NCBI RefSeq assembly: GCF_003002055.1
Contig: NZ_PVZF01000007.1
Location: 1-64,000, forward strand
Direction: 5' to 3'
Origin: Kineococcus rhizosphaerae
Lineage (GTDB): Bacteria; Actinomycetota; Actinomycetes; Actinomycetales; Kineococcaceae
Length of the DNA: 64,000 nucleotides
Under the pieces are notes generated by a model, which saw nothing but the letters and a program-made list of their open reading frames with translations, was not told where the DNA came from and made no database searches. The translations under genes were made by a program, and so were the position numbers. Below are positions 36,355 through 40,957 of this stretch, in pieces (the stretch's first letter is position 1; each line of letters opens with the position of its first letter).

Positions 36355-37233
36355 TCACACGGCGAGGTCGACGCAGAACAGCGCCCGCGGGTCCTGCAGC
36401 ATCGCGGGTGGGCGGACGTCGGTGCGCGCGGCCCGCCCGCCCCAGCGGACGCGGCGCCGGTGCCGCACGCAGACCCCCTTGGCGGAGCTGAACTCGTAGT
36501 CCCCCACGACCTCGCCGAGCAGCAGCGCGCGCTCGGACTCGATGGGCACGGCGACCTCGTCGCCGGGGGCGAGTTCGTGGACGAACGTGTCGAGGACGCG
36601 CAGGTCCTTGCCGGGGCGGCGTTCGGGCCGGATCTCCTTCAGCAGCGCCCGCAGCGACGTGCCCGGGGCCGCGCCGCGCACGTCGACGTCCACCCCGGAG
36701 GCGGTGCCCAACCCCACGACACCGTCGGCGAGGAACTCCCCGAGGGCCTGCGGCGCAACGGGTCGCACGACCCACACGAGCCGCCCCTGCTCCCGCTCGA
36801 CGGGTTCGAGGGGTTCGGGTTCGGGCCACACGTACGGCAGGTCGTCGGGTTCGTCGCCGAACAGGGGGCGGTAGAACTCGGGGTCCTTGCGCAGCAGCGC
36901 CGAGCGGTGGCTGCGGTGCAGCGCCTCGTCCCCGACCCAGGGCGGCAGCGCGGTCCGAGTGGCGGCGTCGGGGGCGAACTCCGCGATCTGCGGGCCCGTC
37001 GTGTCGGCCCGTCCGGTCCGGGTCCACTCGGCGACGACGGCGAGCCCGTAGGCCACCAGCGCGGGGGTGTACCCCCGCCACATCCGCACGGCCGGGTGGT
37101 TGGCCCACCCGTAGTCGGGCAGTTCGAGGGCGCGCAGGACCTGCAGCGTCTCCACCCGCTGCTTGCCCAGCCGCGGGCCGTCGAGGACGGCCGCGGACCG
37201 GGCGAAGTCGGGGTACGGGAGGAACGTCTGCAC
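36355..37233 (-). CDS. MSMEG_6728-type (pyrimidine-dimer-glycosylase-like) protein fused to a restriction-linked reader-like domain
   Basis: A 292-residue protein. The N-terminal half (QTFLPYPDFARSAAVLDGPR, LGKQRVETLQVLRAL, HPAVRMWRGYTPALVAYGLAV, SHRSALLRKDPEFY) matches the MSMEG_6728 family, related to T4 endonuclease V-like pyrimidine dimer glycosylases. The C-terminal half (LVWVVRPVAPQALGEFLADG, then FVHELAPGDEVAVPIESE, LLLGEVVGDYEF and HRRRVRW) has the spacing of the predicted reader domain found at the N-terminus of restriction endonucleases. GTG 37233 begins the family-typical N-terminus. DNA repair or modified-base recognition is inferred from these similarities. Confidence 0.7.
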   Translation of the reverse strand: MQTFLPYPDFARSAAVLDGPRLGKQRVETLQVLRALELPDYGWANHPAVRMWRGYTPALVAYGLAVVAEWTRTGRADTTGPQIAEFAPDAATRTALPPWVGDEALHRSHRSALLRKDPEFYRPLFGDEPDDLPYVWPEPEPLEPVEREQGRLVWVVRPVAPQALGEFLADGVVGLGTASGVDVDVRGAAPGTSLRALLKEIRPERRPGKDLRVLDTFVHELAPGDEVAVPIESERALLLGEVVGDYEFSSAKGVCVRHRRRVRWGGRAARTDVRPPAMLQDPRALFCVDLAV

Positions 37234-40301: not shown

Positions 40302-40673
40302 TCAGCGCCCGAGGAGCTTGTCGATCAACCGGGCGAAGAAGCCCTTCTTCACGGGCTCGGCGACGGGCGCCGCGACGGGCGCGACGGGTTCGGCGACGGG
40401 CTGGACGCGGGCGGGTGCCGCCGCGGGCTGGACGCGGGCGGGTTCCACGACCGCTTCCTCGACGGGCTCCACGACGGGCTCCACGACCGGTTCCACGACG
40501 GGCTCGAGGGCGCTCTCGTGCGGGCGGGAGGCGTTCAGGGTCCCGTGCAGCTCCTGCTCGGGGGTGTAGCTGGCCTCGCCGAGGATGGACGCGGCGTGCA
40601 GCAGGGCCGACGCCTGGACGGGGGCGACGGTCTGCGCCCCGCGCACGGGGGTGGTCTCGTCGAGGGTGGACAT
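40302..40673 (-). CDS. Small protein with PVVE repeats and C-terminal amphipathic helix
   Basis: A 123-residue hypothetical protein. The N-terminal third is moderately polar. A central repeat of the form EPVVEPVVEPVVEPVEEAVVEP leads to PARVQPAAA-type repeats, and the protein ends KKGFFARLIDKLLGR, a basic amphipathic helix that could bind membrane or a partner. ATG 40673 has GGGAG seven bases upstream. I recognise no family. It is convergent with the dioxygenase-like gene, 10 bp apart. Confidence 0.6.
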   Translation of the reverse strand: MSTLDETTPVRGAQTVAPVQASALLHAASILGEASYTPEQELHGTLNASRPHESALEPVVEPVVEPVVEPVEEAVVEPARVQPAAAPARVQPVAEPVAPVAAPVAEPVKKGFFARLIDKLLGR

Positions 40674-40957
40674 CAAGCAGCTCCCGGTGTCGTGGCCGCC
40701 TCTTCGGTGACCGTCGTCCCGTCATCGGCCCGCCCGGTCGGCCCCCTGAGCCGGCGCGGCGAGCACCACCCGGACGGACGCCGGGGACACGCGGCCGTCC
40801 TCCCCGCGCGTCGCACACGTTCGACCCGGATCGCGGCGCGGTCGCGGCCCGACGTGTGCTCTCGACCCCGTCCGGACGCGAACCGGGGTCCGACGCGTGC
40901 GACGCGCGGGACAGTCGCCCGCGCTCACGTCGGCCCCCCGTCCGCCGATGGGACGAC
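40674..40957. other. Divergent intergenic region, no gene recognised
   Basis: About 284 bp between the PVVE-repeat gene and the membrane protein gene. Frames here are Arg-rich antisense-type. No palindrome longer than about 7 bp or convincing promoter pair was noticed. Confidence 0.4.

Follow-up and report, generated by a model that had tools for sequence, protein, structure and literature searches.

A two-domain gene in Kineococcus rhizosphaerae

The window analysed here, a 64-kb stretch of DNA from Kineococcus rhizosphaerae, carries on its minus strand a gene for a protein in which a domain of the T4 endonuclease V type is followed by a putative base-reading domain. The gene and its parts are as follows.

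36355..37233, minus strand: whole gene, 292 amino acids, two-domain protein; GTG start at 37233, stop codon ending at 36355
36820..37233, minus strand: N-terminal domain, residues 1-138, MSMEG_6728 family, T4 endonuclease V type (NF038085, 218.7 bits; PF03013, 69 bits)
36787..36819, minus strand: linker, residues 139-149, lowest model confidence (mean pLDDT 62 for residues 141-150)
36358..36786, minus strand: C-terminal domain, residues 150-292, PUA-superfamily reader-like (PADLOC PDC-S02, E 3.6e-10; fold matches; homologues L041, L042, L049 and L051-L053)
37150..37152, minus strand: codon for Glu28, aligned by MAFFT with the catalytic Glu23 of T4 DenV (gene numbering)
36703..36705, minus strand: codon for Thr177, a position that is W, F or Y in 6 of 7 restriction-type reader rows
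36496..36498, minus strand: codon for Tyr246, a conserved reader-domain aromatic

An artefact of frame or annotation is ruled out by a single open frame conserved at 36 loci. A protein search returned 41 loci, with Kineococcus species as the closest named matches, and 36 of these loci match from the first residue to at least residue 286 (30 of them outside Arthrobacter). Alignment A1 combines 35 of the 41 with the K. rhizosphaerae protein (36 rows, 31 non-Arthrobacter and five Arthrobacter), leaving out a locus cut by a contig end (L033), a split gene (L038), two loci with the N-half only (L039 and L040) and two McrB-like proteins (L041 and L042). The start codon occupies the same column in all 36 proteins, 35 of which show Met and the remaining one, with its GTG, Val. 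Within its own genome the gene is the sole one with PF03013, and the C-terminal domain likewise occurs once (search up to E 10); at E 0.001, neither the Mrr_cat nuclease nor the EVE domain was found anywhere in this genome.

Both halves are under purifying selection, with a median dN/dS of 0.31 (N) and 0.29 (C) over the 463 pairs without Arthrobacter and of 0.36 and 0.38, respectively, over all 548 pairs, as given by a crude Nei-Gojobori count that is prone to saturation at high GC and keeps a pair only if each of its dS values lies between 0.1 and 1.2. The C-half has the higher dN/dS in 20 of 25 listed pairs, all of which include the K. rhizosphaerae protein.

Elsewhere in the window, a GC-rich tandem array with periods of 27 and 123 bases lies at the very start (1-340), and a small minus-strand ORF (40302-40676) with repeated PVVEPVVEP-like units has no Pfam match. 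No Rfam family was found in the 64 kb.

The N-terminal domain

The model NF038085 (MSMEG_6728_fam) covers residues 1-138 at more than twice its curated cut-off of 100 bits, and PF03013 (Pyr_excise, pyrimidine dimer DNA glycosylase) covers residues 1-75 well above its cut-off of 23 bits, bearing out a first-pass annotation that had assigned the N-terminus to an MSMEG_6728, T4 endonuclease V-like pattern. T4 DenV itself scores 53.3 bits on PF03013, and it is on this shared family that the probable link between the two proteins rests. A direct profile comparison of the N-domain with DenV gave nothing (probability 0.15%), the N-domain profile (A3) matched no PDB chain, and the K. rhizosphaerae protein itself matched no solved structure by sequence. 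Among the fold matches listed for the whole-protein model, which are filled by the C-domain, the absence of T4 endonuclease V is uninformative on the N-domain. Uracil-glycosylase models do not match the 292-residue protein up to E 10.

When aligned with phage and actinobacterial relatives, Glu28 sits under Glu23 of DenV and is invariant, both in the 36 fused or extended rows and in the 22 rows of a wider set. The corresponding residue of the T4 pyrimidine dimer glycosylase, numbered 22 in the processed protein, is described as catalytic, and the nucleophile as the amine of the processed Thr (PMC3285167). The Thr2 feature of the T4 enzyme is replaced by Gln in every row of both sets (36 and 22). 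By the methionine aminopeptidase rule, Met1 should stay in place before Gln2. With Gln at residue 2, therefore, Met1 is expected to be retained and the T4 Thr2 amine would not be reproduced.

The C-terminal domain and its relatives in restriction-type proteins

The C-half has no match in Pfam or NCBIfam up to E = 10, and Pfam finds only PF03013 in the entire protein, with neither an Mrr_cat nuclease nor an AAA GTPase domain. Residues 153-270 match the PADLOC candidate defence family PDC-S02 along profile positions 3-123 of 346, a likeness to the first ~120 residues of restriction-type proteins. Residues 180-264 match an insert in two McrB-like AAA proteins of Ghiorsea (E 8e-7 and 9e-6), one of which (L041) carries AAA_5 with the C-domain as the insert. 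GTPase domains of McrB often hold inserts that are likely to encode specificity domains, according to a census of McrBC systems (PMC11090510).

A profile of the C-half (A2), searched against 296 genomes drawn evenly from the phylum, hit 13 places in 12 genomes. These comprise the K. rhizosphaerae gene, further MSMEG_6728 fusions (L046, L047, L048, L050 and L056), Mrr-type proteins with Mrr_cat (L049 and L051), a protein with a NucS/PD-(D/E)XK-type region (L052), an AAA_5 protein, by our reading McrB-like, with the domain inside (L053), and a 238-codon frame (L045, 1198-1914) that ends in a zinc-ribbon-like CxxC-type cysteine motif and has no recognisable nuclease. The remaining places, L054 and L055, lie antisense to unrelated genes and are probable chance matches. 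Judged by these profile matches, the C-domain is homologous to the reader domain of Mrr-type and McrB-like restriction proteins. It is not a classical EVE domain by sequence, as neither the EVE (PF01878) nor the YTH sequence models match up to E 10 and profile comparison with EVE gave a probability of 2%. Sequence searches of solved structures returned chance-level matches only (2 with A2, 11 with A4), and a PHROGs search returned weak, unnamed families only.

The first-pass annotation had proposed a fusion of these two parts at 36355-37233, with a restriction-type reader at the C-terminus, and both proposals are supported by profile matches and structure prediction. It had also named the reading that would undo them, namely that the C-half is simply the normal extension of the glycosylase family. 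We looked for this and found otherwise: the NF038085 model ends at position 149 and matches residues 1-138 only, stand-alone forms make up 10 of the 18 strong members in the phylum and all of the 80 viral relatives examined, and Mrr-type and McrB-like proteins contain the C-domain as well.

Predicted fold and pocket

Structure prediction returned a mean pLDDT of 91.4 and a pTM of 0.87 for the whole protein, and 89.2 and 0.84 for the C-domain alone. The best PDB rows in Foldseek are YTH domains, at E 5.5e-3 with the whole model and 2.1e-3 with the C-domain model; no row reached E 0.001 with either. VIA-align placed the whole model closest to PH1033 (Z 8.3, rmsd 3.0, 103 residues aligned), MJECL36 (7.9), the EVE-HNH enzyme VcaM4I (7.3, 109 aligned) and YTHDF2 (6.9), and the C-domain model closest to MJECL36 and PH1033 (both 8.1), YTHDF2 (7.2) and VcaM4I (7.1), where a Z of about 8 is in the middling range of the tool's own scale. 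We take PH1033 and MJECL36 to be EVE-type proteins. The best 50 rows for each of the two models are EVE- or YTH-type, by title or known family, and align over most of the domain. The C-domain is thus predicted to adopt the PUA-superfamily fold of modified-base readers. The RuBisCO factor Raf1, which appears in Foldseek rows 7, 21 and 31 with a probability of 0.14 or less, was set aside.

VcaM4I is reported to flip 5mC or 5hmC into a pocket of P24, W82 and Y130 (PMC7897488). Several residues of the C-domain are strongly conserved: Tyr246 is kept in 31 of 31 non-Arthrobacter fusion rows and in all seven restriction-type rows (six plus L045) and in none of the five Arthrobacter rows; His258, Arg260 and the Gly224-Asp225 pair are kept in all 31 non-Arthrobacter rows, and Trp154 in 30 of them. 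Position 177, aromatic in most restriction-type readers, is Thr in 28 fusions, Ala in two and Val in one. As this position is non-aromatic in the fusions, the ligand may differ from that of the restriction-type readers.

Distribution and history in cells

Stand-alone and fused forms coexist across the phylum. NF038085 matched 20 genomes of the 296-genome draw, 18 of them above the cut-off; these 18 strong members divide into 10 stand-alone proteins, six with the C-domain, one with a weak remnant of it (L081) and one with another extension (L082). The gene occurs in 10 of 11 genomes of the genus Kineococcus, always in a frame with a C-domain match, and the lone genome lacking it is a draft in ~1060 contigs. 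One related family, picked because an order-wide search had shown matches there, has a match in 11 of 13 genomes; ten of these matches span the whole profile, and a contig end truncates the other. The full-length profile matched 54 of 297 genomes of the order, 44 in the N-half (some also in the C-half, or only in part of it) and 10 in the C-half alone; most of the order is therefore without the gene. Arthrobacter has an eroded C-domain, and Nocardioides and many other family members have none.

A tree of the N-domain (79 rows, few columns, support of 80-90% at key forks, phage rows on long branches) groups the fused and extended rows together and apart from 12 cellular stand-alone rows. Its exceptions are a phage row (L103) that adjoins the fused group and the split Arthrobacter gene (L038) that lies inside it, and the stand-alone label requires at least two changes on this tree. 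A single old fusion followed by erosion in Arthrobacter and relatives is likely, as the simplest reading. The fusion is the standing form in one branch and not special to the K. rhizosphaerae genome, and the computed pattern is that of a gene inherited vertically like an ordinary chromosomal gene.

Two oddities accompany this distribution. The fusion gene of Arthrobacter sp. ATA002 (L038, 5989-6776) is split into two open frames of ~149 and 128 codons, and one genome with the fusion has a second reader-domain match in a 379-codon frame (G340:C3:8287-8661).

Gene neighbourhood

The setting of the gene looks like a housekeeping one. Its neighbours in the window encode a HAD hydrolase, a 2-hydroxyacid dehydrogenase, a subtilase and a cation efflux protein; in Geodermatophilaceae, genes for a tRNA-editing-domain protein, a glyoxalase-like protein, MscL and a zinc-ribbon protein also lie around it. 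These gene lists are approximate because gene calling relied on a simple script based on ORFs and GC3. Among nine neighbouring proteins scanned from the window and the Geodermatophilaceae loci, eight have no match to a PADLOC model; the exception is the subtilase, two genes from the fusion gene, which matches the PADLOC subtilase model at E 1.6e-21 and also IetS.

A SIR2-family gene lies upstream on the same strand at 18 Geodermatophilaceae loci (in the range L008-L031), with a gap of 7-436 nt, and in some of them a small ORF lies in between. An operon of the SIR2-family gene and the fusion gene is possible. At three of the loci the two are only 7-16 nt apart.

Relatives in phages, viral contigs and plasmids

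Phage relatives are confined to the N-domain. A match is present in 39 of 50,697 phage records, and every one of them falls within residues 1-131. The IMG/VR viral contigs contain at least 584 relatives among 600 candidate stretches, and in all 80 contigs examined the N-domain frame ends no more than 40 residues after the domain, with no C-domain match in any of the 80. Stand-alone genes of the MSMEG_6728 type (L160-L239) are very common in viral contigs, mostly without known function.

DNA-metabolism genes are close by in five of the eight phage neighbourhoods viewed. The eight settings are listed below.

L102: replication protein
L155: adenylate kinase and dUTPase
L156: helicase and thymidylate kinase
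L157: primase/polymerase
L158: ligase-like protein
L101: stand-alone phage gene beside methyltransferases
L159: stand-alone phage gene beside a regulator, with a SprT-like protease nearby
L103, 1501-3024: Microbacterium phage Cece, stand-alone gene that ends a tRNA array, directly before an RNA ligase gene

The last of these hints at a possible RNA role for some members of the MSMEG_6728 family.

A viral structure library gave eight matches at E <= 0.001, from phages and giant viruses. One is a Lausannevirus protein of 293 residues aligned over 244 columns; since the aligned part of these matches is not given, its likeness may extend beyond the N-domain.

The whole protein was used as the query for the plasmid count, as a C-half query misses the eroded Arthrobacter form, and it matched 6 of 72,556 records, five of them confined to residues 1-131 and located on replicons of between 0.6 and 11.9 Mb. 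The sole match over both halves (residues 1-288, 41% identity) is on a 1.35 Mb Arthrobacter replicon typed as non-mobilizable. The C-half alone has a weak match to one other plasmid protein.

Proposed function and alternatives

Retention in nearly all close relatives, an apparent housekeeping setting and an N-domain from a repair family make a repair enzyme the simplest explanation. We put at about even the chance that the gene encodes a chromosomal base-excision repair enzyme with a base reader of its own. The mechanism envisaged builds on the two domains, their conserved linkage, the vertical inheritance pattern and the conserved Glu that the computations revealed. The PF03013 domain would act on damaged DNA as the T4 pyrimidine dimer glycosylase does, through putative glycosylase/lyase chemistry in which Glu28 would assist attack by the N-terminal amine, the base would be released and the strand would be cut at the abasic site. 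The PUA-superfamily domain would bind a flipped-out unusual base, thereby placing or holding the enzyme at the lesion, presumably a UV photoproduct or other altered base.

Several results count for such a repair role: the N-domain shares the Pfam family of T4 DenV, with the catalytic Glu aligned and invariant; all but one of the 11 Kineococcus genomes have the gene, as do 11 of the 13 in the related family, and the tree fits one origin of the fusion in cells; eight of nine neighbours have no PADLOC match, and five of eight phage contexts lie near DNA-metabolism genes; and the C-domain is, by profile, homologous to restriction readers, with a predicted PUA-superfamily fold in two models. Others count against it. 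Residue 2 is Gln and not Thr, there is no direct profile match to DenV, and position 177 is not aromatic. Fold scores are middling, with Foldseek E values no better than 2e-3 and a Z of about 8. Many relatives have no reader, the domain is eroded in Arthrobacter, the N-half is matched in 44 of 297 genomes of the order, and the C-half evolves faster in 20 of the 25 listed pairs with the K. rhizosphaerae protein.

A further proposal, which we consider unlikely, is a modification-guided DNA glycosylase, in which the reader would find a specific methylated, hypermodified or damaged base and the T4-endonuclease-V-type domain would excise at or next to it. If true, repair (or restriction) would work by taking out a base, in place of the nuclease step of type IV restriction enzymes. 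A rival reading is an anti-phage role, in which the reader would recognise a modified phage base and the glycosylase would remove that base or its neighbours as a counterpart of type IV restriction. Such a role gains from the occurrence of the reader domain otherwise mainly in restriction-type proteins, among the proteins examined, from glycosylase defence against modified phages as reported for Brig1 and Brig3 (PMC11078745, PMC13160076), and from the PADLOC-matching subtilase (E 1.6e-21) two genes away. We nevertheless regard it as distinctly unlikely. The gene is not patchy within the genus or the related family (10 of 11 and 11 of 13 genomes), eight of nine scanned neighbours match no PADLOC model, and only six of 72,556 plasmid records match, the one over both halves being the 1.35 Mb non-mobilizable Arthrobacter replicon. 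The 39 phage records all end by residue 131, 80 of 80 viral contigs examined stop within 40 residues past the N-domain, and Brig1 has a uracil-glycosylase-like structure, unlike PF03013. The first-pass annotation had left repair and defence side by side; distribution and neighbours favour repair and disfavour defence, and a vertically inherited repair enzyme is the favoured reading over an anti-phage factor.

The substrate could also be RNA, with the N-domain acting on RNA or tRNA and the PUA-type domain reading a modified RNA base. YTH and EVE domains are mostly tied to modified RNA (PMC7897488), the stand-alone gene of phage Cece ends a tRNA array beside an RNA ligase gene, and a tRNA-editing-domain gene is nearby in Geodermatophilaceae. 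Yet PF03013 is, by its T4 member, a DNA repair family, five of the eight phage contexts viewed concern DNA metabolism, and relatives of the reader are fused to Mrr_cat and PD-(D/E)XK-type nucleases, leaving an RNA-directed enzyme very unlikely in our estimation. Finally, the C-domain might no longer read bases and merely lend DNA affinity, stability or dimer contacts to an ordinary glycosylase. The missing aromatic at pocket-loop position 177 (28 T, 2 A and 1 V in 31) would fit, as would the erosion of the domain in Arthrobacter and its absence from Nocardioides and many other members. We think it unlikely, however, given that all 31 non-Arthrobacter rows retain Tyr246, His258, Arg260 and the Gly224-Asp225 pair and that median constraint on the C-half is about equal to that on the N-half. 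For the favoured reading, inheritance like that of a chromosomal gene argues that the protein is probably a repair enzyme that has a base sensor of its own.

Published data on relatives touch on this role. MSMEG_6728 of Mycobacterium smegmatis has a SigF-like promoter and values of -5.57/-4.75 in an expression table of a sigF mutant (PMC4694148), and is listed at -4.0 under zinc chelation (PMC7174638); these table entries fit a stress role. For Kineococcus radiotolerans, the genome paper lists photolyases along with Uvr proteins, and no homologue of Mrr or Uve1 (PMC2587704).

Relation to known systems

No report of a PF03013-reader fusion was found among titles and abstract beginnings of open-licence PMC papers, and the word "glycosylase" is absent from the main text of a survey of EVE and DCD domains (PMC7641849). 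The Kineococcus protein resembles several known systems in part. It shares PF03013 and the aligned catalytic Glu with T4 DenV, whereas DenV has 138 residues, starts with Met-Thr (PMC3285167) and has no reader, and the Kineococcus protein starts with Met-Gln and has one. The stand-alone MSMEG_6728 family (NF038085) corresponds to residues 1-138, far above the cut-off, and 10 of 18 strong members in the phylum have no C-domain, while the Kineococcus branch adds the reader.

Mrr-type or PDC-S02 endonucleases and McrB-like AAA proteins have a homologous reader domain, coupled to a nuclease or AAA domain; the Kineococcus protein has neither of those and a glycosylase-type domain instead. The EVE-HNH enzyme VcaM4I and the YTH readers have a similar predicted fold over ~105 residues (Z 7.3 and up to 7.2, respectively), but the C-domain matches neither the EVE nor the YTH sequence model up to E 10. 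Brig1 and Brig3 are likewise glycosylases connected with modified bases. Brig1, however, is structurally of the uracil-glycosylase type, and many of its homologues lie in putative defence islands (PMC11078745), in contrast to the PF03013 domain, apparent housekeeping setting and separate reader of the Kineococcus protein.

The branch with the fusion includes Kineococcus, Modestobacter and Blastococcus. DNA glycosylases usually locate lesions with a single catalytic pocket. A glycosylase equipped with a base-flipping reader of the kind common to restriction enzymes would, if the proposal is true, represent a different search strategy and show the passage of defence-type readers into core repair. 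Kineococcus, Modestobacter and Blastococcus are lineages known for tolerance to radiation and drought. For Kineococcus radiotolerans, such tolerance is also described in its genome paper (PMC2587704).
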